NCBI GenBank assembly: GCA_947451235.1
Contig: CANFZA010000017.1
Span: 1 to 32,879, forward strand
Source: Methylophilaceae bacterium
GTDB taxonomy: Bacteria; Pseudomonadota; Gammaproteobacteria; Burkholderiales; Methylophilaceae
Reading direction: 5' to 3'
DNA length: 32,879 bases
The translations under genes and the position numbers were made by a program. Below, piece after piece: positions 1 to 27,420 of this stretch; within the stretch, counting starts at the first letter, position 1; every line of letters begins with the position of its first letter. The notes beneath the pieces were generated by a model. It was not told the origin of the DNA. It worked only from the letters and a program-made list of their open reading frames with translations, and did not search any database.

Positions 1-774
1 AACCGTATGGACCCAACGACTGTTGAAGGCTTTGAGCCAAAACGTGCGATGAAAATGGATGGTCCAGGTAATGGCCGTGGTGATCGTGGTGACATTCGCC
101 GTGACGCACATAAACCAGGTGGTCGCGGTGGCTTTAAACCACGTGATGATCGTGGTAGCTTTAACGACCGTGGTCCACGCACTGAAAGCCGTGGCGATAC
201 TCGCCCTAGCTTTAGTCGCGACAGTTCTGACAGCCGTGGTGATAGCCGTGGTAACCGTGATTCAGCACCGCGTGAATCAAATGGTAACTCAGCTGGTTAT
301 GCAGGCCGTACTGAAAGACCTTCTAGCGACCGTCCACGCAGTTTTGGTGACCGTAATGCTGGTGGCGATCGCTCAAATAGCGACCGTAGCCGTAGCGATC
401 GTCCAAGCGGTGACCGTTCAAGTGCAGCAGCGCCTAACCGTAGCTTTGGTGACAGCGTAGCTTTTGGCAAAAAACCTTTTCCACGTGATGGCGCTAGCGC
501 TCCTCGCGGTGACAGTAATCGTGGCGATAGCCGTGGCGATAGCCGTGGCGACAGTCGCGGTAACCGTACAGATGCACCACGTGGCGACAACCGTGTTTTA
601 GGTCAACGTTACGAAGGCCGTTCTGATGCACCACGTGGCGACCGTTCAGCTGCACCAGCACGTCGTGATAGTAATGACAGCCGTCCTGCTTCTCGTCCTA
701 GCCCTGATACACGTAGCTTTGGTAATGCAAACGCTGGTAGCGGTGCTCCTCGCCGTCCACGTAGTTTTGCTTAA
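1..774 (+). CDS. C-terminal RG-rich tail of a probable DEAD-box RNA helicase (5' partial)
   Basis: The reading frame is open from the first base of the window, so this is the 3' part of a gene; the Met at 7 is probably internal. The first visible residues (DPTTVEGFEPKRAM) resemble the segment that follows the helicase core in RhlE-type DEAD-box proteins. The remaining roughly 240 residues are a low-complexity, strongly basic and acidic tail dominated by RGD, SRGD, RGN, DRS and APRGD units, including a run of RGDS repeats around 525-560 encoded by a 12-bp DNA repeat. Such RG/RGD tails are known to give helicases non-specific RNA binding and to support condensate formation. Another helicase gene starts 38 bp downstream on the same strand, which supports the reading. 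No helicase motif is visible in the window, so an RG-tailed RNA-binding protein of another family (for example a pseudouridine synthase) remains possible. Confidence 0.55.
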   Translation, partial: NRMDPTTVEGFEPKRAMKMDGPGNGRGDRGDIRRDAHKPGGRGGFKPRDDRGSFNDRGPRTESRGDTRPSFSRDSSDSRGDSRGNRDSAPRESNGNSAGYAGRTERPSSDRPRSFGDRNAGGDRSNSDRSRSDRPSGDRSSAAAPNRSFGDSVAFGKKPFPRDGASAPRGDSNRGDSRGDSRGDSRGNRTDAPRGDNRVLGQRYEGRSDAPRGDRSAAPARRDSNDSRPASRPSPDTRSFGNANAGSGAPRRPRSFA

Positions 775-4426: not shown

Positions 4427-5872
4427 TTAACGTCCAATTTGATGCTTATCCATGCGATAACGCATCGTCATACGCGTAATGCCTAACTTCCGGGCTGCTT
4501 CAGAAATATTGCCATTCGAATCGGTTAACATTTGCAATAAAATTGCTTTTTCAGTGGCCTCTAAGCTTGGCGTAGCGTTTTGATTTGCATTAGTTTGCAT
4601 CGAATATTGCGTAGCGCTCTTGGGGCTTGGTAGCGCTAAATCAAATGCTGTTATTAAACCTTCGTTACACAGCAACATCGCGCGACTCACTTGGTGCTTT
4701 AACTCACGCACATTTCCGGGCCATGCATAGGCCTTAATCATCGCCAGTGCATCTGTAGCAAATACTGGCCGCGCCAAACCATAGCGCTTAGCGGTTTGTG
4801 TTGCAAAATGGCTGGCGAGCAATAAAGCATCAGCTTCACGCTCGCGCAATGGCGGCATTGCAAGACTCATTACATTCAATCGGTAATACAAATCTTGTCT
4901 AAAGCTACCCGATAGTGACATTTCATGTAAATCACGATTTGTCGCGGCAATAAAACGCGCCGCCACGGGACGTTCTTTAGTTGAACCTAATCGGCGCACC
5001 ACGCGACGCTCAAGCACATTAAGCAACTTAGCTTGCAAGGCCAAAGGCAATTCACCAATTTCATCTAAAAAAAGTGTGCCGTCTTCCGCGGCCTCAATCA
5101 AACCTGGGCGTGTAGCTAAAGCACCGGTAAAAGCGCCCTTCTCGTGACCAAATAACTCACTTTCCATTAAATCGGCAGGTAATGAAGCACAATCAATATG
5201 TACGAAAGGCTTATCATTATATTCATCATTATTGGGACATGAGGCATGTAGCAAACGTGCAGCTACATCTTTACCGGTGCCGGTTTCACCACTAATCAGC
5301 ACGGTGGGCGGCACGGTATCGCTAGCTACCAACTGAGAAATACGCTTAATTTGCGCTTTTACACTTTGCATGGCAGCGCTTTCACCTAACATTTCAACAG
5401 TATCTATAGCGTGTACATTACGCTGGCGTGAATAGCCTAAGCGATTACTTTGTAAAGTGACTGCTTCAGCTTTTTGCACAGACAACAACAACTCTTCAAG
5501 GTCTATGGGCTTTTTAAGATAATCGACTGCGCCTTGCTTGATGGCGTTAACCGTATCGCTTATTTCACCGTGTGCGGTCATCACAATCACTGCGGCATTT
5601 TTAGCGACAAACTCTGCCAGTAAATCCAAACCGTTACCGTCAGGCAGGCGCATATCTAGCAATACAATATCTGCTGAAAACTGCTTTGCTATAGCTCGCG
5701 CATCTTGTAAATTTTCTACGTGCTCTACCTCATAGCCGGCTTTTTGCAGACGCCGCATCACAGCGCGTGCAAACAACACCTCATCTTCAACAATCAGTAG
5801 TTTTGATTGTTGTTTTGATTGTAATTCAGACATATTTTCGGCATTTTTTGTGCTTAGTTGCGAGAGTTGCAA
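4427..5872 (-). CDS. Sigma-54-dependent response regulator (NtrC family enhancer-binding protein)
   Basis: This is a cytoplasmic transcriptional activator that works with sigma-54 RNA polymerase and uses ATP hydrolysis to open promoters. The receiver domain (about 23-135) has the acidic pair in VEDE and the phospho-acceptor Asp73 (DIVLLDMRLPDG). The AAA+ domain (about 165-395) has Walker A SGETGTGKD (Lys201), the sigma-54 contact loop GAFTGA in ELFGHEKGAFTGA, and Walker B TLFLDEIGELP. A Fis-type helix-turn-helix ends the protein (GNISEAARKLGITRMTMRYR). The start could be TTG at 5872, with AGGAA 7 nt upstream, or ATG at 5833, which has a weak ribosome binding site; both keep the receiver domain intact. 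No sensor kinase gene is adjacent, so it is an orphan regulator here. The TonB receptor gene just upstream carries a sigma-54-like promoter and palindromic sites that are its best candidate target. Confidence 0.93.
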   Translation of the reverse strand: MQLSQLSTKNAENMSELQSKQQSKLLIVEDEVLFARAVMRRLQKAGYEVEHVENLQDARAIAKQFSADIVLLDMRLPDGNGLDLLAEFVAKNAAVIVMTAHGEISDTVNAIKQGAVDYLKKPIDLEELLLSVQKAEAVTLQSNRLGYSRQRNVHAIDTVEMLGESAAMQSVKAQIKRISQLVASDTVPPTVLISGETGTGKDVAARLLHASCPNNDEYNDKPFVHIDCASLPADLMESELFGHEKGAFTGALATRPGLIEAAEDGTLFLDEIGELPLALQAKLLNVLERRVVRRLGSTKERPVAARFIAATNRDLHEMSLSGSFRQDLYYRLNVMSLAMPPLREREADALLLASHFATQTAKRYGLARPVFATDALAMIKAYAWPGNVRELKHQVSRAMLLCNEGLITAFDLALPSPKSATQYSMQTNANQNATPSLEATEKAILLQMLTDSNGNISEAARKLGITRMTMRYRMDKHQIGR

Positions 5873-5905
5873 AAAGGTGTTCCTGTTTCATGGTACATGG
5901 AAATT

Positions 5906-5968
5906 GTAGGAGCGGCGCCCCACCGCGAATCTATATGAAAAATCATCGCGGCGGGGCGCCGCTCCTAC
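5906..5968. repeat. REP-like inverted repeat 3 (GTAGGAGC family)
   Basis: Arms 5906-5928 and 5946-5968 pair over 23 nt with one A/C mismatch at 5922 (a G-U pair on the minus-strand RNA). The ends are the same GTAGGAGC/GCTCCTAC as in the other two copies, but the inner sequence is GCGGCGCCCC. It lies between the terminator of the TonB receptor gene and the start of the response regulator gene. Confidence 0.84.
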
Positions 5969-5983
5969 ACACGGCATATCCAT

Positions 5984-6012
5984 AAAAAATGCCGAACTAG
6001 TCGGCATTTTTT
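5984..6012 (-). terminator. Rho-independent terminator of the TonB receptor gene
   Basis: Perfect 12-bp stem: AAAAAATGCCGA (5984-5995) pairs with TCGGCATTTTTT (6001-6012) around loop ACTAG. On the minus strand it starts 7 nt after the receptor stop codon and ends in a run of six T. It probably separates receptor transcription from the downstream regulator gene. Confidence 0.88.
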
Positions 6013-6018
6013 GTTTAA

Positions 6019-8370
6019 TTAATCAACATCAACTGAGGCTGCTGCAGTTTTTGGTTTTCCAAAGTCATAACGTAAACCCACCCAACCAGCACGAGGTGCG
6101 CCAGGGGCTAAGAAAGTTTCATTTCTAGCATTGTTACCATCAAATGCGGCACTTGCACCCACAAAAGAATTAGCGCCTAACATCGCGCTAGTGTAATAAT
6201 CACGGTCAAACACGTTATTCACCTTAGCAAATACTTGCCAACCAGTGTTAGCTAGCGTGTAACGCGTATCAAGATTTAACACACCGTAACCACCAATTTT
6301 GCCTGAGCCAAAGTAAGTCGTACCGTCTGCCTGATGCAGATTATTTTCATTACCACGCGCATATTGGTCAGCAAACAACACAGCCGTTGCGCCTATGGTC
6401 CAAGTTGGCATTGCACGCCATTCGCCACGGAATTTCAATTGATGCTTAGGAATACCTGGAATGTTGTCGCCCGGATTAACCGTGATAACACCTCCTAAAT
6501 TCGACGAATTGACATCACTGGCAATATCAAAAGTGCTTTCGTAAGTAGCTTTAATAAAACTATAACCAGCAGACCAGCGGAAATCACCAGTGACCGCGCT
6601 TAAACTTAAATCCATCCCTACACGGCGCGTATCGCCTACGTTTTTAAAGTAGCCAGTGCCGGCTGTATTAGCCGCAATAAACTGTAAATCATCAGAGTTT
6701 GTCGCGTGATATGCCGACATACTCCAATTAGCTGTTTTTCCAAACTTACCGCGCACGCCACCTTCAAATGTTTTAGCAACTACTTGGTTTAATGTTGGTG
6801 GATCGCCCGCCATTGCGTTAGGCAAATTACATGGTACCGCAGGATCAGAACAACCCATTTCTACGATAGATGGTGCACGGTTACCTTCGTTGTAGCCAGC
6901 ATAAACGTTAAGCTCAGGCACAAAGCTGTAGGTAAAGCCTAGCGCTGGGTTAAATCGTTGGTAAGTGGCTGCGCCAGATAAAGAGCCGGGACCAGAAGCT
7001 TGCTGTAAATCTTCATTATTGATATGGGTATTGTTATAGCGACCAGAGGCGGTTAAGGCTAATTTAGAGGTCATATTATAGGTGTCAGTAGCAAATACAC
7101 TCCAAGTGCGGCTACGGCCGTTTAATAAAACATCGGTATTTACCGGGTCTAGCGTACCGCTTAAACCACGCCCTGCGTCAAAGGTACTGAACAATTGGCT
7201 GGTTTGTTCAAAACTGATGCGGGCTAAATCAGCACTGACGCCAGCAGTTAGCTGGTTTTTTTCCGTTGCCCAAGTTAATTGGGCGCCTAAACCGTAGCTC
7301 TTTTGAGAAGTTTGGCTCTGATTGATGACGCCTTCGTAGATATTTGCATTCCCAATTGCACCAGTACCAAAATCACCATTCAAATCGCCATTATAAGAAC
7401 TGGTACGGTTTTTACGGTAATACGCATTAGTGGTGAATAAAAATTCATCTGATAACCACGTGCTGACTTTAGCGTTGATAAAAGCTAACTTGTTTTTAGT
7501 GATGTCCGGTTTAGTGTAAATTGAACTGCGGCCTAAGCTTTGCAATAGACTTTGCGCTTGGTAGCCATTGCCAGTTAACTGATTATCAGCACCAGTAAAA
7601 CTTACATCTACATCGGTTTTATCATTGCTCCAGCCTAACTTGGCAAAGCCTTGCAACACATCTGAAGGCGAACTATCACGCCAACCGTCTTCTTTAAATT
7701 TGTTACCTGCAAAAAAGTAACTCACGCCATTATCTAGCTTGCCGCCGTATTCGCCCTCAACCGCTTTACGACCCCATGAACCGCCTGATAGTTGAATGCC
7801 ACCGCCTGGATTATGCTCACCGCTTTTAGTTTGCACAGAAACTGCGCCGCCCAAAGTATTCAGGCCAAATAATGGGTTAGAACCCGGCATTAATGCGATG
7901 CTTGAAATAGCATTTTGTGGAATCAAATCCCAGTTTACGGTATCGCCAAACGGCTCGTTCACACGAACGCCATCTTGATACACGGACAAACCCTGAGGCG
8001 TGCCTACTAAAGGCGAAGCAGTAAAACCGCGGAAATTAACGTCTGGTTGATACGGGTTATTTTGCGCTTCGTTGATATTTACGCCAGCCATATTCTGATT
8101 CAGGTAATCCGCAATACTCAAACCATGCTGATCTTGAATATCTTTACCTTTTGCTACTTGCACATTAGAAGGAATTTGGTTAATTGGCACGCCAAGGCTA
8201 GAAAGCGGCGTAACACCCACCACTTCAATTTTACCAAGCTCAATCGCTTCGGCGCGGTTTTCAGCTAACGCTAATTGTGGCATTGCATAGGCAGCCAAAA
8301 TTGCAACTAAGATTAATTTTGGCTTTAGCGTGTTAGTTTGTAAAGAAGCCGCTTGTAATGTTTTTGGCAT
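6019..8370 (-). CDS. TonB-dependent outer-membrane receptor
   Basis: This is an outer-membrane beta-barrel transporter powered by TonB-ExbBD for uptake of a scarce ligand (iron chelate, other metal complex, cofactor or oligomer). The start is ATG at 8370, with AGGA 6 nt upstream; an upstream extension to 8427 lacks support. Residues 1-36 form a signal peptide ending LALA before ENRAEA. A TonB-box-like segment follows (GKIEVVGV), then the plug domain (QIPSNVQVAKGKDIQ, VNFRGF, VYQDGVRVNEPFGD, GSNPLFGLNTLGGAVSVQTKSG read as separate motifs) and a long barrel with GYNEGNRAPS and the terminal FAKVNNVFDRDYY and GLRYDFG. The C-terminus runs 12 residues past the aromatic RYDF. The 783 aa are a usual length. 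The ligand cannot be read from the sequence. It has its own promoter region with sigma-54-like features and its own terminator. Confidence 0.93.
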   Translation of the reverse strand: MPKTLQAASLQTNTLKPKLILVAILAAYAMPQLALAENRAEAIELGKIEVVGVTPLSSLGVPINQIPSNVQVAKGKDIQDQHGLSIADYLNQNMAGVNINEAQNNPYQPDVNFRGFTASPLVGTPQGLSVYQDGVRVNEPFGDTVNWDLIPQNAISSIALMPGSNPLFGLNTLGGAVSVQTKSGEHNPGGGIQLSGGSWGRKAVEGEYGGKLDNGVSYFFAGNKFKEDGWRDSSPSDVLQGFAKLGWSNDKTDVDVSFTGADNQLTGNGYQAQSLLQSLGRSSIYTKPDITKNKLAFINAKVSTWLSDEFLFTTNAYYRKNRTSSYNGDLNGDFGTGAIGNANIYEGVINQSQTSQKSYGLGAQLTWATEKNQLTAGVSADLARISFEQTSQLFSTFDAGRGLSGTLDPVNTDVLLNGRSRTWSVFATDTYNMTSKLALTASGRYNNTHINNEDLQQASGPGSLSGAATYQRFNPALGFTYSFVPELNVYAGYNEGNRAPSIVEMGCSDPAVPCNLPNAMAGDPPTLNQVVAKTFEGGVRGKFGKTANWSMSAYHATNSDDLQFIAANTAGTGYFKNVGDTRRVGMDLSLSAVTGDFRWSAGYSFIKATYESTFDIASDVNSSNLGGVITVNPGDNIPGIPKHQLKFRGEWRAMPTWTIGATAVLFADQYARGNENNLHQADGTTYFGSGKIGGYGVLNLDTRYTLANTGWQVFAKVNNVFDRDYYTSAMLGANSFVGASAAFDGNNARNETFLAPGAPRAGWVGLRYDFGKPKTAAASVDVD

Positions 8371-8410
8371 ATCATTTCCTAAGTTTTTATTTGAAACATT
8401 ACAATTAAGT

Positions 8411-8426
8411 AGCAATAAGCATTCCA
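8411..8426 (-). promoter_or_regulatory. Candidate sigma-54 (-24/-12) promoter of the TonB receptor gene
   Basis: On the minus strand the sequence reads TGGAATGCTTATTGCT. The sigma-54 consensus is TGGCACG-N4-TTGCW, so the invariant GG and GC have the required 10-nt spacing and only two of the 12 specified positions differ. Transcription would start near 8400, giving a leader of about 30 nt that contains the AGGA ribosome binding site. Palindromic sites lie at the usual distance upstream. Confidence 0.65.
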
Positions 8427-8509
8427 AACACTTTAATTTTAAAGATATTGAATATAATCAAAGGCTAATATTATTTAAGTGTGACTGTTACGATTTTACA
8501 CTGCGACAA

Positions 8510-8567
8510 TGGTTGTATACAACCATCAATTGGTTGTATACAACCATCAATTGGTTGTATACAACCA
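8510..8567. promoter_or_regulatory. Array of three 16-bp palindromes, candidate upstream activator sites
   Basis: The perfect palindrome TGGTTGTATACAACCA occurs at 8510-8525, 8531-8546 and 8552-8567, with a TCAAT spacer, so centres are exactly 21 bp (two helical turns) apart and all sites face the same side of the helix. They lie about 110-167 bp upstream of the predicted sigma-54 start of the TonB receptor gene and begin 9 bp beyond the stop codon of the upstream permease gene. The symmetry suits a dimeric Fis-type helix-turn-helix protein. A GntR- or TetR-type repressor site is an alternative reading. Confidence 0.75.
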
Positions 8568-8576
8568 CCACAATCA

Positions 8577-11096
8577 TTAAATACTATTCAATAATTGTCT
8601 TGCTGGAATATTTAAAAATCCACGTAAACCCAGCCAAGCCGCTAAAGGAATAAGCGCACTGGCTATCAGCATGGTGCTAATTGCTAGCGTTACATTTAAT
8701 TGAAATGGAATATTTAAAATAGTCACACTTAGATAATAAGCCAGCAAGTTAGCGGCAATGGCGGCAACCAATGCGGCGATGAAACCTATGCAGGCAAATT
8801 CTGCCACATAAGCAATGCCCACTTGCTGCCTTGAGGCGCCAAATACACGCATTAGTGTGGCCTCTGCGATGCGCTCTTCTCGGGTTGCCACCAGCGCTGC
8901 GTATAACACCGCCACACCAGCCATTAAGCTAAAGGCGAATACATATTCTATGGTGCTGCTCATTTTTTGCATAATGCCGCGCACTTGCTGTAAGAGTGCC
9001 GCTACATCTATCACCGTTAAATTTGGATATTCGCGTATTAAAGTATTTAAGGGCGCATCGGCATTAATGGGCAGATGAAAGCTGCTGATGTAATTGGCTG
9101 GATATGGCTCCAACACGCCGGGTGGCGTGACGGCAAAGAAGTTAGCGCGCATGGTGTCCCAATCTACTTTTCTTAAACTAGTCACTGTCAGCGTTAGCGG
9201 ACTGCCAGCCACATCAAACGAAAGCTTATCGCCTAGTTGTATGCCTAGCGTTTTAGCTAAATCTTGCTCCAGCGAAATATATGGTTTACCGTATTCTTGC
9301 GCTGTCCACCAACGGCCTGAGAGCAGTTTATTGTCACTTTGCAGATTGGCAGCCCAAGACAAATTAAACTCGCGCTCAGCCAAGCGTTTCGCGCGTTCAT
9401 CTTGCCACTGCGTTTGGGCTATATTCGTGCCATTCTTGCTGATTAAGCGACCACGCACCATAGGAAATATCGTGGCATTATCAATTTTTTGCTGGGTAAA
9501 AAATTGCTTAATGCCGCTAATTTGTGCAGGCTGAATATTAATCACAAAGCGATTCGGCGCATCTAGCGGCAAGGACGCTTGCCAGTTACGGATTAAATCG
9601 CCGCGAATTAAAGCCAGCAACATCAACACCATCAAGCCCATGCTAAACCCTATCATTTGCACGGTCGATAATCCGAACCTACGCTTTAGGCCAAGTACGC
9701 CTAATTTCACATCGTTTAACGCCCTATTATTGGACGATAAGTTTGGTGGCAGATTAAATAGGTGATTGACTAAACTCACCAACAAATAAGAAAAACCAAC
9801 AATAGCGGCGCACAGCAATAACAAAGCCAAAATGGTGGCAAGGGCTAACTTAGCATCTTGCGCTTGCCAAAAAATCATGCCGCACATGACTAAGGCTGCA
9901 GGTATAAATTTAGCTTGCGCGGCGCTACTCTGCTTTAGGGTTTCGCGCCGTAAAATGTTCATGGCGGATAAATTTCGCATTTGCCATGCGTGCGGCAACA
10001 CCACGGCAAACATCATGGCGATACTGGCAATAATACCGACAAAAACCGGGCTAAATGAGGCAGACGGTAGCGTTTCTAAAAACAGGCTGCCGGCTAATTG
10101 GGCTAATCCAAATTGGCCAACAAACCCTAACGCCACACCAAGCAAAGCGCTAAAGAACGCAATAATCAAAGTTTGGATAGCCAGCACTTGCAATACGGTG
10201 TTTTTAGACGCGCCAAAACAACGCATTAAGGCAAAAGTATCAAGACTTTGGCGGATATAGGGCAAGCTTGAAAGTAGCATCGCCACCATGGCTAAAATTA
10301 CGCTGACCATGGCAGATAAACCTAAAAACTGTTGCGCTTTTTCTAGTGCTAATTTAATTTCTGGGCGCGCGTTTCGCACGTCTTCTATCTTTTCGCCACG
10401 GCCTAATTGCGGCTTACTTTGCGCAAAATATTGGCTGATTTTTTGTGGTTCTGCCGCCAGTAAAAGTTGATATTTAACGCGACTGCCGACCTGAATTAAT
10501 TGGGTAGAGGGTAAATCTGCCGCGTTCATCATCAAGCGTGGTGCAAAGCTAAACATATCGCCACCGCGTGAAGGTTCGTGCAGTAAAATCGCGCTGACTT
10601 TTAATTTGCGCTCGCCGACTTCAACTTCGTCGCCGACCTTTAAATGTAGTAAGTTAATTAACCTAGGCTCTAACCAAACTTCTCCGATATTTGGTGCAGA
10701 TTTTACAACGACGCCCGTCTCGCTAGCAGTTTGGCCTATCGTCAAATCGCCACGTAAGGGAAAACCCTGTCCTACCGCTTTGATTTCAGCAAGTTGATTC
10801 AACTCACCAAACACCACCATACTGGAAAATTCATAGGTTTTTACGCGCTTAATGCCTTGTGCAATAGCCGTTTTTTCGAAATTATCCGCAATAATATGAT
10901 CAGATGACAAAGCAATATCGCCACCCAGCAACAAACCGCCTTGCTGATTAAGCGCGGTTTCTACCCGTTGGGTAAAAAAACCAACTGCCGTAATCGCAGT
11001 AACGGCCAATACCAAAGCAAACACCAATACGCGCAAGGCACCGGCGCGCCACAAGCTTAAAGTTTGCGTCCAAGCTAATCTAAAAGATAGGTTCAT
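8577..11096 (-). CDS. ybbP: ABC transporter permease with FtsX-like domains (YbbP type)
   Basis: This is the inner-membrane subunit of an ABC system of the MacB/LolCDE superfamily. About ten hydrophobic segments are visible: one near residues 20-41, then after a large periplasmic domain a cluster with GLSAMVSVILAMVAMLL and LAIQTLIIAFFSALLG, a middle group (ATILALLLLCAAIVGFSYLL), another periplasmic domain (LSFDVAGSPLTLTVTSLRKVDWD), and a final FtsX group (YVFAFSLMAGVAVLYAALVATREERIAE in parts, then QVGIAYVAEFACIG). The 839 aa match the double-FtsX YbbP architecture. The ATG at 11096 overlaps the TAA of the ATPase gene (TAATG), implying translational coupling. The ybbA-ybbP pair next to tesA is the same neighbourhood as in E. 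coli. The substrate is not established for the family; envelope or lipid extraction is often suggested. Confidence 0.9.
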   Translation of the reverse strand: MNLSFRLAWTQTLSLWRAGALRVLVFALVLAVTAITAVGFFTQRVETALNQQGGLLLGGDIALSSDHIIADNFEKTAIAQGIKRVKTYEFSSMVVFGELNQLAEIKAVGQGFPLRGDLTIGQTASETGVVVKSAPNIGEVWLEPRLINLLHLKVGDEVEVGERKLKVSAILLHEPSRGGDMFSFAPRLMMNAADLPSTQLIQVGSRVKYQLLLAAEPQKISQYFAQSKPQLGRGEKIEDVRNARPEIKLALEKAQQFLGLSAMVSVILAMVAMLLSSLPYIRQSLDTFALMRCFGASKNTVLQVLAIQTLIIAFFSALLGVALGFVGQFGLAQLAGSLFLETLPSASFSPVFVGIIASIAMMFAVVLPHAWQMRNLSAMNILRRETLKQSSAAQAKFIPAALVMCGMIFWQAQDAKLALATILALLLLCAAIVGFSYLLVSLVNHLFNLPPNLSSNNRALNDVKLGVLGLKRRFGLSTVQMIGFSMGLMVLMLLALIRGDLIRNWQASLPLDAPNRFVINIQPAQISGIKQFFTQQKIDNATIFPMVRGRLISKNGTNIAQTQWQDERAKRLAEREFNLSWAANLQSDNKLLSGRWWTAQEYGKPYISLEQDLAKTLGIQLGDKLSFDVAGSPLTLTVTSLRKVDWDTMRANFFAVTPPGVLEPYPANYISSFHLPINADAPLNTLIREYPNLTVIDVAALLQQVRGIMQKMSSTIEYVFAFSLMAGVAVLYAALVATREERIAEATLMRVFGASRQQVGIAYVAEFACIGFIAALVAAIAANLLAYYLSVTILNIPFQLNVTLAISTMLIASALIPLAAWLGLRGFLNIPARQLLNSI

Positions 11097-18783: not shown

Positions 18784-21700
18784 CTAATTATGCAGCAAAG
18801 CGTTCACTTGCTCTATTAGCGCATCATCTTGCACAGGCTTGCCCAAGAAGGCATTTACGCCTAACTCTTTGGCCACATTACGATGTTTTTCAGCGGTACG
18901 TGAGCTAATAATAATCAATGGAATGGCCGAAGTTTTTTCGTTATCACGCACATAACGCGAGAACTCAAAGCCATCCATACGCGGCATTTCAATGTCGGTT
19001 AAAATAATATCCGGCGTAAATAGTTGCAATTTCTGAATCGCATCCATGCCGTCATTAGCAGTAATCACCTCAAAGTTTTCACGCTCTAACACGCGTGAAA
19101 GTACTTTACGCATCGTCAGCGAATCATCGACGACTAAGGCAATTTTTTTCACTTGCTGTAACACTGGTTGCAGTACTGGCGCAGAAGTTGTCACTTTTAC
19201 TGCACCAATAGATAGCGCCTCGCGATTTGCCAATTGCACAGGGTTAATCACTAACACAATCGCGCCATCGCCCAACACCGTTGCGCCCATCATGCCTGGC
19301 ACACGCGCTAACTGCGTGCCCATTTGCTTCATCACCACCTCTTGGTTGCCCATAATTTCATCTACATGCAAGGCAGTTCTATAAGTACCGCTACGCAATA
19401 AAATCACCGGCGTATAAATATGGTGTTGCGCAAGATGATCCACATCGCCGATTAATTTAGATAAAAAGTATAAGGGGTAATCGTGCGTCGCCCAGTCTAT
19501 TTTATGCGCGGCATAAGCGGCGATCAAATCGGCTTGTTTTAACTTTTGCACCTGCTCAACCATCACCGAAGGAATCGCGAAGGTTTTATTGCCGACACGC
19601 ACCATCACCACTTGCGCCACTGAAAGCGTGACTGGTAAGTAAATATTAAATTTAGCGCCGGTGCCAAGCTCATTAGTTACGTCAATACGGCCGCTTAAAG
19701 CCGTAATATCATTGCGCACAGCATCTAAACCCACGCCACGACCTGAAATTTGCGAAACCTCATCTGCGGTAGTGAAGCCCGGTTCGAAAATAACTGCCAT
19801 CAAAGCTTGATCAGATAAAGATTGATCTGCGCTAATCAAGCCATTTTTAAGGGCTTTTTGCTGTACTTTATCCAGATTAATACCAGCGCCATCATCACTC
19901 ACGACCAGTGTAATTTCATCATTCTCTAAACTAACTTTAAGTTTGATTTGGCCAGTTTCTGGCTTACCAAGTTGTATACGCTGTTCAGTCGATTCCAAAC
20001 CATGCGCAACAGCATTGCGTAATAAATGTTCTAGCGGTGCGCCCATTTTATCTAGCACGCCACGATCCAGCTCAACCTCTTCGCCCTCAATGGTCATTTC
20101 AACAAGCTTATTCAGCTCTCTAGCAGTTTGCCGAACAATGCGCTGCAAGCGCTCTGAAATAGCCGCAAAAGGTAGCATACGCACACCCATCAAGCCTTTT
20201 TGCAATTCACGATTCATGCGGTTTTGCTGTTGTAAGGCGGCATCCGTCTGATCTAAATTAAGCAATAAGCCATTTTGAATGGTCGCCACGTCGTTCACGC
20301 TCTCGGCCATCATTCGCGTTAATTCTTGCAGACGGGTAAAGCGGTCAAACTCCAAGGGATCAAACGTTTCATTCGCTTCTTGCAACAAACTCATACGAGA
20401 CTGCATTTGCGTTTCAGCTTCAATTTCCAGCTCGCGCAAATAGCTGCGTAGGCGACTGATACTATCGGTTAAATCTGTAGAGGACTGCTTAAAGTTCTGC
20501 ATTTCTCTGTCCATCCGAGAACGCATAATCGACACTTCACCAGCCTCGTTAATCAGCCTATCAAGCACATCGGCACGCATGCGCAAGAACTGTGATTTAC
20601 GCGCTGAAGTTCGTGCAGGTACTGGGAGTTTTGTATCGGCATCATCAAGCTGGGCATCAGTTTTAACATCACCAGCAATCGCTTCAAGCATGTAGGAAAT
20701 ATTATCGAACTCAACGAACATTTCATCAAAATCAGCTAAGGTGACTTGCTGTTTAAGTGCGCGAATAACGCGATCTTCCATACTGTGAACGCTATCACCA
20801 ATTTCTGACTGACCAGCCATGCGTGCACTGCCTTTAAGCGTATGCAGCGCACGTTGTAGAGAATCCGAATAGTCACCCGCCTCTGGATGAGTGCGCCAAC
20901 CGCGCAAATCACGTCCTAATTGTGGGACTAATTCTCGGGCTTCTTCTACAAACAAACCAAGCAATTCTTGGTCAACAGCCAAATCTCTAAGTTGCTTGGC
21001 TTGTGCTTTTGCTTCTGCTTTTACTTTAGCTTGCGCAGCAACATTCATGGCTTCTTGCACAGCTTTCGGCACAAGGTCTATAGCTTCTGTCAGCTGTATT
21101 TTTGGTTCAGAATCTTGACCCAACTCTAGCACCGCTGCTGCAGCTTCGTTGGTGGCTAAGGCTTGCATTACCGCAGTTGATCTGGCTAAAGCCTGAATTA
21201 GCGCGCGCGTAGATTTAGGATTTTTCAGTGCTGTCGCTCTTTCTAAACCATCGGCCAGCGCTTTAACAACGTTGCCATACAATGCAATGTGTTGCTCGGT
21301 CCAATCGCTAGTATGGGCATCTAGCCAATACTCTAAAGCGCGCGATAAATCACCAGTAGGCTTAAAGCCAGCGGTAAGTGCATTGCTACCTAAAGTATGT
21401 GCGGCGCGAGAACTCGCCTCTGACGGCAATTCATTGGTGTTGGCAAGTAATGCTTGCTGTGCCGCCATTAAAGTTTGTAAATGTTGTTGTGCTTCCGCCA
21501 AAAAAATATTGAAGAATGCACGGCTTAATGTACGCGTACCGCCTATAAGCACTTCCTCTTTTTGAGGTTTCGGCTTGATTTCAGCCAAGCTCTGCTCAAA
21601 CGCTTGCTCGAGCGCTGCCGCTTCTTTTTGGTAACCGCTAGGGTTTAACGTAACCATTTGCTTGGCTTGCAATTCTGCAACCCAAGTGGCGAAAGCCGCG

Positions 21701-23835
21701 CTTACTTTTTCAATAAAACCTAGCAGTGGGATGGTAGGAAATGCTTTGTGTTCCATCACCAAATTAAGTAGCTTTTCGACCGCCCAAGCGACATCGCTCA
21801 TCGCTGATAAGCCAACCGTGCGACCACTGCCCTTTAGCGTATGGTAAGCGCGGCGAACTTCAGCTAGCGCCTCACTATCAGTTGCATTCACACGTAAAGT
21901 TTGTAGATTTTGCGCTAAGCTGGCTAATACTTCTTCAACTTCCGTTAAGAAAATATCTTGTAACTCAGTATCAAACGCCCTGTCTGTCAGGTCCTGCGAA
22001 GCCGTCATTACATCATTTTGACTGTTTGCGATGTCGGCAACTTCGGCATGTGGCACATTCAAATCTGCTGCATCTGCGTCAATTTCAGCTAGAGTATTAT
22101 CTGCTTCAACCGTTGAGCTAGACACCTCTACAATTGGCACTAAACCCTGCGCTAACTCTTGCAATGCCTCAGATAATGCAAGTTCAGTTTCAGCGCGTAC
22201 ACTAGGCAATTCTTCAGTATATAAGCCTAATACGCTCAAACTATTCGCCAATAACTCATATTTTGAGTGATTAAGCGTACTAGCATCATCACCTTTAAAG
22301 TTTTCTACATAAACAGCACTTAATTGGGCGATAGATTTTGGAATTGGCATTTCCAGCATATCGAATGCCGCAACAATTTGCTGTAAAGGTAAGGTTGTTT
22401 CCTCTAACACAGCCGCATTGGCTGAATCTCTAAAATAGGTATCCAAGGCAGTTTCAGCCAGTTTCAAGGCAGCAATAATTTGCTTCGCCACGGCTTGTAT
22501 TACGCTAGCATCTAAATTAGCCGTTGCAAAGGCTGCTAGTGCAGGCGCTAAAGCAATGCCATCTAAAATAGACTGTAGACGGGCCGTTTGAGTCGCTAGT
22601 TTTTGCTGCGTTTCAGCCTCTATTCGCTGATAATTCTGGCACACATATTCCAGCAAATTAAATGAAGCCGCAATCTCTATTAAGCTAGCTTCGTTGATGA
22701 CGACTTTGCCAGATTGCATGGCCTGCACGGTGGCGTGTATGGTATTAAATAGCTGCGAAACATTTTGATGACTCAGACTTTGCAATAATGCAGCTAAATG
22801 CTCAAGCTTAGCCAAAAATGTTACAAAGTAATCACTGCCTAAATCAACGTTAGCCGAGGCATCGATATTAGACCAAAAATCTTTTAGGCTAGGCAAATCA
22901 GCGCTTAACTGCGCTAAAGCTGCACGTTCGGAGGCTGATACTTCATCAGTTTGGTCAGATTTATGATGGATAGGCAATACCATGTCCAACTCAAACAAAT
23001 CTTTAACACTATTAATCGTGTCACTGCTTCTATCACTAAGCGCCACGTAATAAAGCGCATCGCGTAATAATTGCGTAGGTGCTTTCACCTCACCGGTCGA
23101 CATACTTCGCAATTGCTGATCAAGTCTGCGGCATAGCTTTTTTGCGCCATTATTGGCGGCAATGCTTTCTTGCGCTAAAGCATCCGTAAACGCTGTTGCA
23201 ACCCACCAAAGCGTTTTTTGTGCGTTTTTTTGTTGCACTTGCTGCACGTTTGAAATGGACCCGCGCATTTTATCAAGCGCGATAGCGCTCTTAGTCAGCA
23301 GCCAATCTAACAGTGACTTTTGAAAAATAACGCGCTGATCTGCAACAAAAATAGGCACTGCCGACTCTTCTATCGGATTACTGACTAAGTGCTTAGGCGC
23401 GCTGTAGCTAGTATCTGGATAAAATAAATCACTAATCTCTAATGACTCACCTTGCAGCTCAACTAATGGCTTTAAGCTTTCGTAAAGTTTAGTCGGTGTA
23501 TCGGGCATGCCATTTAATAGATCTTGCAAGTAACGCGACAACGTATCAATCGCATGGATTAAATCCGCCATGATGCTTTTGCTGACTGGAATTTGTTGCT
23601 TTTCCAACTTACTGGTGAGCTTCTCAATTTCTGAGCAATAACGCTTGCATCCTTCAAGGCCAACCATATCCAGCGCACCACTTACCTGATATAAATGGGC
23701 GGTGGTAAAACGCAATGACGCGTACTCTTCTGGCTTTTCACTCACCACCATAAAACTATCAAGCACTTTTTTAAGTGATTGATCAATTTCATCTTTTACC
23801 CAAGATAAAGGGCCAATATCAAATGCTTCAGGCAT
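18784..23835 (-). CDS. chpA: Hybrid chemotaxis histidine kinase ChpA/PilL of the type IV pilus system
   Basis: This is the CheA-like kinase that controls twitching motility and pilus-linked surface responses. The 1683 aa hold several phosphotransfer domains: a degenerate one near the N-terminus (AHLYQVSGAL, His47), a canonical one at YHTLKGSG (His665), a degenerate one at AHTLGSNA (His813) and a canonical one at LHTLKGSARM (His998). After a P3-like helical region come the kinase N-box LRNAVAHGLE (Asn1274), DDGAGI and GRGVGLDAV, a CheW-like domain, and a C-terminal receiver with Asp1614 (IILTDIEMPRMDG). ATG at 23835 has GAGG 7 nt upstream. The gene follows pilJ by 72 bp with no pilK between. 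It is shorter than the Pseudomonas protein and has fewer recognisable Hpt domains. The older name is pilL. Confidence 0.96.
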   Translation of the reverse strand: MPEAFDIGPLSWVKDEIDQSLKKVLDSFMVVSEKPEEYASLRFTTAHLYQVSGALDMVGLEGCKRYCSEIEKLTSKLEKQQIPVSKSIMADLIHAIDTLSRYLQDLLNGMPDTPTKLYESLKPLVELQGESLEISDLFYPDTSYSAPKHLVSNPIEESAVPIFVADQRVIFQKSLLDWLLTKSAIALDKMRGSISNVQQVQQKNAQKTLWWVATAFTDALAQESIAANNGAKKLCRRLDQQLRSMSTGEVKAPTQLLRDALYYVALSDRSSDTINSVKDLFELDMVLPIHHKSDQTDEVSASERAALAQLSADLPSLKDFWSNIDASANVDLGSDYFVTFLAKLEHLAALLQSLSHQNVSQLFNTIHATVQAMQSGKVVINEASLIEIAASFNLLEYVCQNYQRIEAETQQKLATQTARLQSILDGIALAPALAAFATANLDASVIQAVAKQIIAALKLAETALDTYFRDSANAAVLEETTLPLQQIVAAFDMLEMPIPKSIAQLSAVYVENFKGDDASTLNHSKYELLANSLSVLGLYTEELPSVRAETELALSEALQELAQGLVPIVEVSSSTVEADNTLAEIDADAADLNVPHAEVADIANSQNDVMTASQDLTDRAFDTELQDIFLTEVEEVLASLAQNLQTLRVNATDSEALAEVRRAYHTLKGSGRTVGLSAMSDVAWAVEKLLNLVMEHKAFPTIPLLGFIEKVSAAFATWVAELQAKQMVTLNPSGYQKEAAALEQAFEQSLAEIKPKPQKEEVLIGGTRTLSRAFFNIFLAEAQQHLQTLMAAQQALLANTNELPSEASSRAAHTLGSNALTAGFKPTGDLSRALEYWLDAHTSDWTEQHIALYGNVVKALADGLERATALKNPKSTRALIQALARSTAVMQALATNEAAAAVLELGQDSEPKIQLTEAIDLVPKAVQEAMNVAAQAKVKAEAKAQAKQLRDLAVDQELLGLFVEEARELVPQLGRDLRGWRTHPEAGDYSDSLQRALHTLKGSARMAGQSEIGDSVHSMEDRVIRALKQQVTLADFDEMFVEFDNISYMLEAIAGDVKTDAQLDDADTKLPVPARTSARKSQFLRMRADVLDRLINEAGEVSIMRSRMDREMQNFKQSSTDLTDSISRLRSYLRELEIEAETQMQSRMSLLQEANETFDPLEFDRFTRLQELTRMMAESVNDVATIQNGLLLNLDQTDAALQQQNRMNRELQKGLMGVRMLPFAAISERLQRIVRQTARELNKLVEMTIEGEEVELDRGVLDKMGAPLEHLLRNAVAHGLESTEQRIQLGKPETGQIKLKVSLENDEITLVVSDDGAGINLDKVQQKALKNGLISADQSLSDQALMAVIFEPGFTTADEVSQISGRGVGLDAVRNDITALSGRIDVTNELGTGAKFNIYLPVTLSVAQVVMVRVGNKTFAIPSVMVEQVQKLKQADLIAAYAAHKIDWATHDYPLYFLSKLIGDVDHLAQHHIYTPVILLRSGTYRTALHVDEIMGNQEVVMKQMGTQLARVPGMMGATVLGDGAIVLVINPVQLANREALSIGAVKVTTSAPVLQPVLQQVKKIALVVDDSLTMRKVLSRVLERENFEVITANDGMDAIQKLQLFTPDIILTDIEMPRMDGFEFSRYVRDNEKTSAIPLIIISSRTAEKHRNVAKELGVNAFLGKPVQDDALIEQVNALLHN

Positions 23836-23907
23836 TATTTGCCCTCATATTATTTTGCGATATTCTTATACAAAAATCTTTGAATGCCATTTGTAAAACC
23901 GCAGCGA

Positions 23908-25668
23908 CTAAAGTTTAAAACCAGCCACAGAAGAGCGCAACTCTTCCGCAAGCGAAGTCAGCTGACCCACAGAATCAGCCGTCAATTTTGTACCTTCAGA
24001 AGTTTGCGTCGTAATCTCCTGAATCAACTGCATATTATTCGCAACGGTAGTGGCTGATTCGGTCTGCGCATCGGTTGCGGCTGAAATAGATTGAATCAAG
24101 CGCGCCAAATTATTGGTCACGAACTCAATCTCAGACAAGGCTTTACCAGCAGCATCTGCAACACGTGCACCCTCAACCACACCCTCGGTACTTTTCTCCA
24201 TCGCCGCCACCGCACCATGCGTATCAGTTTGAATGGTTTTAACAATGGCACTAATTTGCTTAGTTGCTTCTGATGAACGCTCAGCTAAGCGCTGAACCTC
24301 TTCTGCAACTACTGTAAAGCCTCGACCGGCTTCACCCGCTGAGGCCGCCTGAATCGCCGCGTTTAGCGCCAAAATATTAGTTTGCTCAGTAATATCTGAA
24401 ATCAACTCTACAATTTCACTAATTTCTTGCGAACTTTCACCCAAGCGTTTGATTCGTTTAGAAGTTTCTTGAATCTGTGTGCGAATTTCATTCATTCCGG
24501 CAATGGTATTTTGTACCGCTTGCGAGCCCTGATTAGCCGCTTCTAATGAGCGTTGCGCCACTTGTGAAGCCTGTGACGCATTACTTGAAACCTGCAAAAT
24601 AGAACGCGTCATATCGGTAACCGCATCTGTGGTTTGCATAATTTGCTCTGACTGCATTTCAGCCGCGCTTAATAAACGCGTTGAAGTGCCTTGCGCCACT
24701 GAGGTAGCTGACGTTACCTGCTCAGTGGCACGGTTAATCTCAACCACTAAATCTCGCAAACTATCAATGGTGTAATTAATAGAGTCGGCAATAGCACCGG
24801 TAATACTGTCGCGCACTTGTGCTTTAACGGTTAAGTCGCCATCCGCTAAATCACCCATTTCATCCAACAACTGTAAAACAGCCGCTTGGTTACTTTGGCC
24901 TTCTTGCGCTAACTGCTCAGTTAAAGAGGTCGATTTAACGTTTTGCTTTTTACCTGAAAAATACATGAAAAGTAATAACCACAAGCCTAAAAATACCAAG
25001 CCGATTAATACGATGTTAATAAACGTTGTTTTAGAATTAATTAGCGCCTTATTTTGCTGAGCAATCGCCAAACTAAAAGCGCTACCGGCTTGCTTTGTTG
25101 CCTCAAAGGCTACAGTTAAATCAGATAATGGGGCAGAAGCAGACACGGTACCCAGTGGTAAAGATGGAATATAGCGAGTATTGGCCACTAGATAGAAGTT
25201 TTCGCCAGCTTTAATCAAGCCTTCTAGGGGTGCTTTTAAGCTATTGTTATCTAAATTTTTACGCCAGTAAGCAGAGCGCTCTTTAAATGCAGCCTCAGAC
25301 TTTGCTGCATTGGCGAGTGCTTTATCTCGCTTTTCGGTATTAAAATTAGATGAGGCTACATAAGCTTCGTTGTATGAAGCAAACGCATCTAAGGGATACA
25401 TAGGCGGCGGAGTCGTTTCACCTAATAAGTTTTGATATTCTTTTAAGGTATTGTAAATCGGGCCATTGACTCGAACTTCACTAATCACCCAAAAGCTCAA
25501 CATGGTGAAAATTAAAAATGAAATCATTTGCAAAAACAGTTGGCGGTAACCCGCAGCCAAACCACCAGAACTTGATGTATTTGAAGCACTGCCTTTACTT
25601 TTGAGCTTATTCAAAAATTCACTCATTTGCAGCGGCAAACTTTTGATAATCGCTAAATTTAATGCCAT
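23908..25668 (-). CDS. pilJ: Methyl-accepting chemotaxis protein PilJ
   Basis: This is the transmembrane chemoreceptor of the pilus chemosensory array. The N-terminal cytoplasmic segment (1-43) is followed by TM1 (about 44-64), a periplasmic sensor region of about 150 residues starting [20 protein letters not shown]2 (about 216-237), a HAMP-like linker and the signalling domain with its tip region [20 protein letters not shown] and [11 protein letters not shown]. At 586 aa it is shorter than the roughly 680-aa PilJ of Pseudomonas, and the periplasmic part seems to hold one PilJ-type module. The start is ATG at 25668 with GGGG upstream; ATG at 25626 is possible but has no ribosome binding site. 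A 192-bp gap separates it from pilI, so an extra promoter is possible. Confidence 0.93.
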
Positions 25669-25860
25669 TTAAAACCCCAATCCACAAAACTAATATGCTT
25701 GATAAAAGCTATAACAATAATTGCCAACCTTTTGCTGTTGCTTGCCAATTATTACGTATTCACTATTTTATATTTAACAATTACAAGATTTATTACTTGA
25801 AAACTTCATCCTAAATTTGCACTCGGATTTAGCGTCCAATCTTAACGAAACGGCAAGTCA

Positions 25861-26382
25861 TCAAATAGCAGGTTGGTTAAAAGCTTTATCCTTAACCAAG
25901 TCAACTATATCAAACTCAAGCCATGTTTTATTATCACTGTCTTCGTAAACCAGCTTACTAAAAGCGAGAATCTCATCGCTAGCAGAAGGCTTTAATGCCA
26001 TCACATCAATACTACGTAAACCAATCAAATTTTCAACTAATACAGCAGCTTGTGTGGTCGTCTCCGAGTTAATCAAAATAATCCTATTGTTAGCTGATTT
26101 TGGCGTTGGAGGCATGCCCATAAATTGCGCTAAATCAGTCACGTTATACAAATTACCACGCACGTTAGCGACACCCAAAAACCAAGCTTGTGTTAATGGA
26201 ACTGGCTGTAAAGGCGGCACTGGTAACACCTCAGTCACATCTTTAAGATTGATCAGCACATTATTTGCGCCTACCGTCACGCCTAAACGCGAGCTGGCAG
26301 CTGTACTGCCATGCGAAGCCGCCTCTTTTAACTTTAAAAGAATTGACTCTTGGAATTCACGTAAATTGGAGGATTTAGCCAC
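25861..26382 (-). CDS. pilI: CheW-like coupling protein PilI
   Basis: This cytoplasmic CheW-domain scaffold links the PilJ receptor to the ChpA kinase. The 173-aa protein is a single CheW domain: the first part has RLGVTVGANNVLINLKDVTEV, read here as VGANNVLINLKDV, then the typical LTQAWFLGVANVRGNLYNVTDL region with the conserved NVRG, and RIILINSETTTQAAVLVENL. The start is GTG at 26382 with no strong ribosome binding site. It lies 157 bp downstream of pilH, an unusually wide gap for this operon, and 192 bp upstream of pilJ. Position and domain make the assignment secure. Confidence 0.93.
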   Translation of the reverse strand: MAKSSNLREFQESILLKLKEAASHGSTAASSRLGVTVGANNVLINLKDVTEVLPVPPLQPVPLTQAWFLGVANVRGNLYNVTDLAQFMGMPPTPKSANNRIILINSETTTQAAVLVENLIGLRSIDVMALKPSASDEILAFSKLVYEDSDNKTWLEFDIVDLVKDKAFNQPAI

Positions 26383-26539
26383 GATTATTCAATCATTAAT
26401 GTCAAAGAGATATTAGAGTCAAAAAAGATGTCTCGAGTAATATTCAAACCGTCACATGTTGACGTGCCATTAATAAACCTACAGTAAAGAAAATCAGCAC
26501 GAAAATGAGGTCTATTTACTGTAAAGTAAAATATCAAAA

Positions 26540-26905
26540 TTAACCTAGCGTATTAATTAAATTAAGCAAATCAGCGCTCACTACAGGTTTGGTAATGCAG
26601 GCTTTAGCGCCCATTTTCATAGCCCAAGCTAAATCCGTTGCCTGCGACTTTCCTGTACATAAAATCACTGGAATATGCGTGGTTTTGGGGTCTTTCGTCA
26701 ACGTGCGCGTCACCTGAAAGCCTGACAACCCCGGCATGACCACATCGCATAACACTAAATCTGGTGGATTAAGCGCAACTTTAGCTAAACAATCTTCACC
26801 ATTTTCAGCGCCAAAAACAATAAAACCAGCCGTTTCCAATAACTCAGTTAAAAAGAACCGGTCTGTTGCAGAATCATCAACCACTAAAATTGTTTTGATC
26901 GCCAT
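26540..26905 (-). CDS. pilH: Twitching motility response regulator PilH
   Basis: This is a stand-alone CheY-like receiver of 121 aa that accepts phosphate from ChpA and acts on pilus retraction control or as a phosphate sink. Conserved residues are the acidic pair in LVVDDS (Asp10, Asp11), the phospho-acceptor Asp54 in DLVLCDVVMPGLSG, Thr in ILCTGK and the Lys in ITKPV. It begins with ATG at 26905, two bases after the pilG stop codon, so the two are tightly coupled. The start has no need of its own promoter. Confidence 0.94.
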   Translation of the reverse strand: MAIKTILVVDDSATDRFFLTELLETAGFIVFGAENGEDCLAKVALNPPDLVLCDVVMPGLSGFQVTRTLTKDPKTTHIPVILCTGKSQATDLAWAMKMGAKACITKPVVSADLLNLINTLG

Positions 26906-26907
26906 GC

Positions 26908-27351
26908 CTATTCTTCCTCTTGTTTGTTAATTCGACTAATCGCCGCATAAGTTTGCACTGCATCAATCAAGGTTTCTTTTGTGAATGGTTTGGTCAGGTA
27001 TTGGTCAGAACCCACCATGCGACCGCGCGCACGGTCAAATAAACCATCTTTGCTAGAAAGCATAATGACTGGGGTAGACTTATAACGGGCATTACGTTTG
27101 ATAAGTGAACAAGTTTGGTAGCCATCAAGCCTAGGCATCATGATATCAACGAAAATTAAATCAGGGTGTTCATTGGATATTTTAGCCAAAGCATCAAAGC
27201 CATCTTCAGCTAAAATCACTTCACACCCTGAGGCTTTAAGAAATATCTCAGCGCTACGACGTATGGTATTACTGTCGTCAATTACCATCACTTTCATGGA
27301 TAATAATTGGTCTTTCGTTAACTTTTCTTGACTTGGCTTTTCTTGACTCAC
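26908..27351 (-). CDS. pilG: Twitching motility response regulator PilG
   Basis: This CheY-like receiver is known in Pseudomonas to promote pilus extension and raise cAMP. Receiver residues are the acidic pair in VMVIDDS (Asp25, Asp26), phospho-acceptor Asp69 in DLIFVDIMMPRLDG, Ser in VIMLSS and Lys in LTKPF. The start chosen is GTG at 27351, because AAGGGAG lies 7 nt upstream; a TTG at 27357 would sit against that motif, and ATG at 27297 has no ribosome binding site. It is the first gene of the minus-strand pil-chp operon and stands divergent from the FIST gene. Confidence 0.93.
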   Translation of the reverse strand: MSQEKPSQEKLTKDQLLSMKVMVIDDSNTIRRSAEIFLKASGCEVILAEDGFDALAKISNEHPDLIFVDIMMPRLDGYQTCSLIKRNARYKSTPVIMLSSKDGLFDRARGRMVGSDQYLTKPFTKETLIDAVQTYAAISRINKQEEE

Positions 27352-27420
27352 CAGCAAGCTCCCTTAATATTTATGCGACTTAAACCCAGATGCAAGTTGA
27401 TTGCGTCAATTATGAGTCAT

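Follow-up and report, generated by a model that had tools for sequence, protein, structure and literature searches.

How a TonB-dependent receptor comes to stand behind a sigma-54 promoter, and what it takes up, are the questions raised by this locus. Sigma-54 control of TonB receptors is uncommon, and the sensing of lanthanides and the control of their uptake in methylotrophs is an open question, in which the known systems vary by lineage. The window, by which we mean the whole stretch of 32,879 nucleotides from a Methylophilaceae bacterium, contains a receptor, a response regulator (RR) of the NtrC type and an array of palindromes. Judging from sequence comparison, the window probably holds the receptor half of a two-locus, sigma-54-dependent and XoxF-linked circuit for the uptake of a lanthanide or lanthanide chelate in the Methylophilaceae. 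The parts are of known kinds; within the literature searched, their combination and likely role are new. That search was limited, and print may differ; it returned no work joining a TonB-dependent receptor with sigma-54 in Methylophilaceae, and the papers it found on lanthanides, sigma-54 and methanol dehydrogenase were, by their titles and the beginnings of their abstracts, on other topics. The circuit offers a concrete, testable candidate in this family, with kinase, regulator, enhancer, promoter, receptor and TonB set beside XoxF.

The receptor gene is located at 6019-8370 and the RR gene at 4427-5872, both on the minus strand. The receptor, of 783 aa, carries the Pfam Plug and barrel domains and is a distant relative of PqqU by NCBIfam and PDB sequence searches, scoring 111.7 bits against the PqqU equivalog (cut-off 1200) and matching only two PDB entries, PqqU/YncD 9c4o and 6v81, at E about 1e-20. 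A structure model of the receptor was discarded, its mean pLDDT being 52. The RR has the receiver, sigma-54 AAA+ and Fis-type HTH domains (PF00072, PF00158, PF02954) of an NtrC-family sigma-54 response regulator, and its translation contains the GAFTGA loop, which is GAFTNA or GAFTSA in many orthologs; domains and translation thus bear out the adjacent activator with a GAFTGA loop that the earlier note had described. Among the 25 best NCBIfam matches listed, the RR falls below the cut-off of every family, the equivalogs PrsR of PEP-CTERM systems (363.5 against 502.6), AtoC (361.6 against 714), NtrC (335.6 against 558.6), ZraR (318.4 against 760) and NtrX (296.8 against 600) included. Its best named relatives are Methylotenera records, followed by Methylophilus, which points to a Methylotenera as the likely source organism. 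Of 150 Methylophilaceae genomes, 127 have receptor matches at E <= 1e-60 and 83 have RR matches at E <= 1e-110. The arrangement resembles NtrBC, AtoSC and ZraSR, where a kinase and a receiver-AAA+-Fis regulator are likewise combined with dyad enhancers and a -24/-12 promoter; it differs from them in the scores of the RR, which lie under those family cut-offs, and in the receptor target and the xox linkage, which appear new here. Downstream of the RR gene follow purT and then a globin gene, and upstream of the array lies a ybbP-like gene (8577-11096), itself preceded by a ybbA-like one. This gene order around the receptor and RR is largely kept in the relatives that were read.

The promoter region has a simple anatomy. 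Three copies of the 16-bp dyad TGGTTGTATACAACCA, each a perfect palindrome, occupy 8510-8525, 8531-8546 and 8552-8567, with start-to-start spacings of 21 and 21, and form the proposed enhancer of the RR. Their centres lie 147, 168 and 189 bp upstream of the receptor ATG at 8370, and the array begins just past the stop of the ybbP-like gene at 8577. The putative sigma-54 element TGGAATGCTTATTGCT, of the form GG-N10-GC, is found on the minus strand at 8411-8426, about 40 bp before the ATG, and is assigned on sequence and conservation. Both the three palindromes and the GG-N10-GC promoter had been claimed beforehand, and both are present as described, the former as perfect dyads with a 21-bp period. 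The core GGTTGTATACAACC matches perfectly in the own genome only at this array; with 2 mismatches it occurs at two other places, fewer than its reversed-pattern control, and the looser TGGYTRTANNYARCCA adds one further single match. The own genome also carries rpoN (G000:C93).

Comparison of loci across the family indicates that this anatomy is conserved. The comparison covered 38 receptor loci with the RR linked on the same strand, from at most 36 different genomes, since L223 and L226 are second copies from the genomes of L014 and L021. Dyads with at most one mismatch precede the receptor at 38/38 of these loci (dinucleotide shuffles: mean 0.05, maximum 1), and two or more dyads at 31/38 (shuffles: 0). 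The strict -24/-12 element is found at 31/38 (shuffles: mean 0.27, maximum 2), rising to 37/38 when TTGA or TTGT or a corrected start is allowed. The strict misses are accounted for by a wider window around the start, in which the element becomes visible (L021, L038, L226 and L227), and by TTGT in place of TTGC (L027 and L035); L229 has no -24/-12 element even under the relaxed scoring. Three loci, L042, L230 and L231, were scored as lacking the RR by geometry alone, the RR being beyond the fetched piece in the first and on the opposite strand in the other two, and all three have dyads and the element. Left unscored were two loci without a receptor start and one without a receptor match. At the 13 receptor loci that are truly without the RR (L016, L032, L040, L041, L369-L373, L381 and L383-L385), neither a dyad nor a conserved -24/-12 element was found at any; L016 shows a loose GG-N10-GC of different make-up. 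The alignment of orthologous receptor upstreams proposed in the earlier note therefore comes out in favour of its reading, with dyads (38/38) and strict promoter element (31/38) conserved together with the RR, and sigma-54 control of the receptor through dyad enhancers and the adjacent NtrC-type RR is supported across loci.

Two side observations belong to these loci. At L230 and L231 the receptor is inverted relative to the RR, so the two are transcribed away from a shared intergenic region that contains dyads. In addition, the receptor -12 reads TTGA or TTGT in 10/11 cases where the RR ortholog has a GAFTSA or GAYTSA loop (L017, L022, L026-L028, L030, L034, L035, L374 and L375), and TTGC in 32/32 where the loop is GAFTGA, GAFTNA, GAYTGA or GAYTNA. 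These counts include second copies, and common ancestry may account for the pairing. The GAFTSA genomes retain TTGC at their other dyad promoters, which makes a simple coupling between loop and -12 base less likely.

The next question is whether the dyads belong to the RR at all. Palindromes resembling TTGTATACAA are typical of some GntR-family sites, and the dyads could be read as sites of another DNA-binding protein of this kind, with the RR a mere neighbour; the fit to GntR-family sites and the missing sigma-54 element at the dyads of fabA and of some PepSY genes speak for that. The comparison of whole genomes makes it very improbable. At least two TGGYTRTANNYARCCA hits, where a palindromic site scores on both strands, were found in 70/83 genomes with the RR and in 2/67 without it, and the reversed control averaged 0.27 and 0.06 hits, respectively. 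Even within one genus, g22, two or more hits occur in 8/9 genomes with the RR and in 0/6 without it. Both exceptions among the RR-minus genomes have an evident cause: in G007 the RR is split in two pieces (L380), and in G064 the receptor match starts at base 7 of its contig and is cut by the contig end. Seven RR-plus genomes lack a strict hit; four of them have degenerate dyads with 1-2 mismatches and a -24/-12 element with TTGA or TTGC (L374-L377), G125 has dyads with one mismatch at L031, and the remaining two are loci truncated at contig ends (L378 and L379). The genomes are related by descent, so the counts are not independent events, and exact P values are given no weight because of this shared ancestry. 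The association of RR and dyads is nonetheless tight, and together with the sigma-54 element at 22/36 of the other dyad targets, which requires a sigma-54 activator, it argues for the RR as the protein that would bind them. Loss of rpoN was considered as the cause of RR loss and dropped, rpoN being found in 143/150 genomes. The locus L380 (G007:C129) retains one perfect dyad and no -24/-12 element at the receptor, and may represent a system in decay or a fault of assembly.

These other targets extend the reach of the dyads beyond the receptor. Searching for paired dyads gave arrays in 42/150 genomes, with one control hit overall. Outside the receptor locus, dyads occur near ECF-sigma/FecR/receptor operons, a second receptor, fabA, autotransporters, LanP-like PepSY genes, YVTN beta-propeller genes (3 loci; the TIGR03866 match is below its cut-off) and a MoxY-like kinase, with a few single sites lacking an obvious target. 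Of 36 such upstreams, picked for their nearby dyads, 22 have GGN8TTGC within 160 bp (shuffles: mean 1.5, maximum 6), in many cases some 50 bp ahead of the start codon; therefore, the dyads behave as sigma-54 enhancers, as far as sequence can tell. GGN8TTGC is absent from the 3 fabA and 3 beta-propeller upstreams, and the LanP-like upstreams are mixed, several being without it and some having TATAAT instead. At L084, L085 and L089 the dyads lie about 125-175 bp upstream of fabA without a sigma-54 element; on their other side, L085 and L089 have a moxR/mxaS-like cluster. Methanol dehydrogenase genes were rejected as targets: in 30 fetched loci, no dyad with up to 2 mismatches occurs within about 1.5 kb (0/30).

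The LanP-like genes, which encode two PepSY domains, have dyads with at most one mismatch in front of them in 11/30 loci and none in 19/30. For the own genome, which is 91% complete, no LanP-like match was obtained. The dyad regulon differs from LanP of M. flagellatus in that the LanP-like gene of G062, which we take to be M. flagellatus KT, was searched for a dyad and has none. Such gaps, together with the dyad-free methanol dehydrogenase loci, count against the lanthanide circuit. The likeness is in the proteins themselves: those encoded behind the dyads in the 11 loci have two PepSY domains and ~170 aa, and resemble LanPepSY/LanP of Methylobacillus flagellatus (PMC12482762).

The makeup of this target list raises a different reading of the system, in which the regulon answers general metal starvation, mainly for iron or siderophores, and the window receptor is one siderophore receptor of several. 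Many dyad targets resemble iron or siderophore ECF/FecR/receptor operons in several genera, and the dyads there mostly come with a -24/-12 element. Against this are the partner kinase, which is encoded with tonB near xoxF, the MoxY-like pair that adjoins the receptors lacking the RR, and the perfect array, found in the own genome only at this receptor. We regard the iron reading as unlikely, and the XoxF-linked lanthanide circuit is retained.

The partner kinase itself was traced through RR relatives outside the family. In gammaproteobacterial relatives, Methylophaga among them, the RR gene is usually preceded immediately by a kinase gene: this order holds for 12/15 loci read, whose RRs have 44-56% identity and which include Methylophaga and Methylohalomonas. 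Of the other three, L250 has no kinase next to the RR, L253 begins close to a contig end, and the ORF finder did not resolve the RR of L245. HAMP, HisKA and HATPase domains were recognised in the kinase, and no LapD_MoxY_N match. The three Methylophaga loci have a XoxJ/MxaJ-like gene close by. A profile built from ten such kinases matched 91 of the 150 family genomes; three matches of only 140-157 bits were dropped and 88 kept, a few of them fragments. The ortholog of the own genome is at G000:C46:7701-9152. Kinase and RR occur together in 82 genomes, are both missing in 61, and are discordant in 7 (6 kinase only, 1 RR only). Compared across genomes, the RR is thus associated with an unlinked kinase, as had been supposed beforehand and as the 12/15 adjacency outside the family also supports. 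Modelling of the kinase gave a mean pLDDT of 72.8 and a mostly helical fold, and the best 50 of 690 PDB matches are mainly histidine kinase cores. L259, from a Candidatus Methylomirabilota MAG, may hold an independent pairing: its RR (46% identity) is truncated where the contig begins, and a TonB receptor (28% identity) comes after it.

Within the family, the kinase gene lies away from the receptor-RR locus, with tonB and near xoxF-xoxJ-xoxG. Sixty genomes were scanned for methanol dehydrogenases, and 41 of them bear the kinase; among the dehydrogenases listed, 28/41 have one 7.7-10.0 kb from the kinase, 12/41 have none on the kinase contig, and in G059 the nearest is 157 kb away. In 15 fetched neighbourhoods, of which L352, L365 and L366 reach contig ends, the gene immediately before the kinase is tonB in 15/15 (TonB_C of Pfam, score above the cut-off), XoxF with the DYD motif HDEWDYDG is found in 12/15 and XoxJ in 14/15. 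The residues DYD and DFA distinguish lanthanide from calcium methanol dehydrogenases, and both types were observed in the kinase neighbourhoods. Comparison thus associates the kinase with xoxF. A review figure legend also draws a sigma-54 regulator near methanol dehydrogenase genes; that regulator is GAF-modulated rather than a receiver-type RR, and the legend describes no receptor promoter (PMC11845868). A single dyad with at most one mismatch lies ~100-115 bp before the tonB-kinase genes in 2/15 neighbourhoods (L352:6755, of the own genome, and L364:4780), where it may provide feedback.

From these pieces, the circuit would work as follows. The membrane histidine kinase, encoded behind tonB and near the XoxF genes, would phosphorylate the window RR, with both the signal and its sign being presumptive. 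Binding of the RR to the dyad array, which by estimate lies 115-160 bp ahead of the transcription start, would then activate sigma-54 RNA polymerase at the -24/-12 promoter, so that the receptor gene, and perhaps the RR gene behind it, is expressed. The receptor would take up a lanthanide or lanthanide chelate for XoxF, powered by the TonB protein whose gene adjoins that of the kinase. The earlier note had called the module self-contained, and this did not hold, as the kinase resides elsewhere with tonB near xoxF-xoxJ-xoxG and the same dyads stand before several other operons in relatives; its dyad, sigma-54 and RR control and its unlinked kinase are supported by the comparison.

The receptors lacking the RR provide a natural experiment, with one receptor under two unrelated regulators. 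Beside them, a MoxY-like kinase with HisKA_3 and a NarL-type RR occurs in 10/13 loci (L109-L111, which are wider pieces of L032, L040 and L041, L369-L373, L383 and L384); L016, L381 and L385 have no such pair beside the receptor. Nine of the ten pair kinases match LapD_MoxY_N at E <= 0.001, and 5/10 are over the Pfam cut-off. A LanP-like gene lies nearby in L109 and L110. This pair resembles MxaY/MxaB, the two-component system tied to methanol dehydrogenase choice and lanthanides, of which MxaY controls the lanthanide switch in Methylomicrobium buryatense, as the accessible part of the paper reports (PMC5018670). The window circuit is of a different type, having an NtrC-type RR with sigma-54, a HisKA/HAMP kinase that lacks LapD_MoxY_N, and a receptor as its target. 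Separately, in L092 and L093, from genomes retaining the NtrC-type RR, a related MoxY-like kinase has its own dyad and -24/-12 element. On balance we lean, with somewhat less assurance than for the window circuit, towards a wider sigma-54 lanthanide regulon, in which the xoxF/TonB-linked kinase and the RR would control the receptor, to which several genera add other receptors as well as proteins like LanP and LutB, and would be swapped for a MoxY/MxaY-type pair in some lineages.

The ligand is most likely a lanthanide or lanthanide chelate, favoured because of the linkage to XoxF, TonB, LanP-like and LutB-like genes. The LanP paper is said to describe a lanthanum-induced TonB receptor of M. 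flagellatus. As for known systems, the parts of the sources available describe LutBAH homologs (beta-propeller, substrate-binding protein and receptor) beside xoxF1, moderately downregulated by lanthanides (PMC9291206), and LanP in M. flagellatus as well as a LutH-like receptor downregulated by cerium (PMC12482762). The TonB receptors LutH (lut cluster) and LanA are linked to XoxF and, by way of LutB, to a YVTN beta-propeller (PMC12482762, PMC9291206); they are compared with the window receptor by description only, and these parts mention no sigma-54/NtrC control for them.

The main rival for the ligand is PQQ. The same sigma-54 circuit would then serve a receptor importing PQQ, free or metal-bound, and the kinase would report cofactor supply. 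PqqU/YncD, the sole solved-structure match of the receptor (9c4o, 6v81), suggests such a role, and metal co-binding has been modelled in some PqqU homologs, according to the available part of the report (PMC12124388). Yet the score of 112 bits is far under the PqqU cut-off of 1200, and PQQ is apparently made by the cell, as the own genome has pqqB over its cut-off and so probably synthesizes the cofactor. PQQ uptake is therefore doubtful, a shade more so than the iron reading, and a lanthanide or its chelate remains the preferred ligand.

Elsewhere, a plasmid DNA search returned only short partial matches covering <=7% of the query; those with annotation fall in genes for a receptor or an activator or in purT. 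The translations of window 18784-27357 indicate a chemosensory cluster with ChpA-like histidine kinase, MCP, CheW-like and CheY-like genes. The open frame at window 1-774 is already under way at the first base of the contig; it has a long RGD/RGG-rich tail and could be the last part of a DEAD-box helicase.
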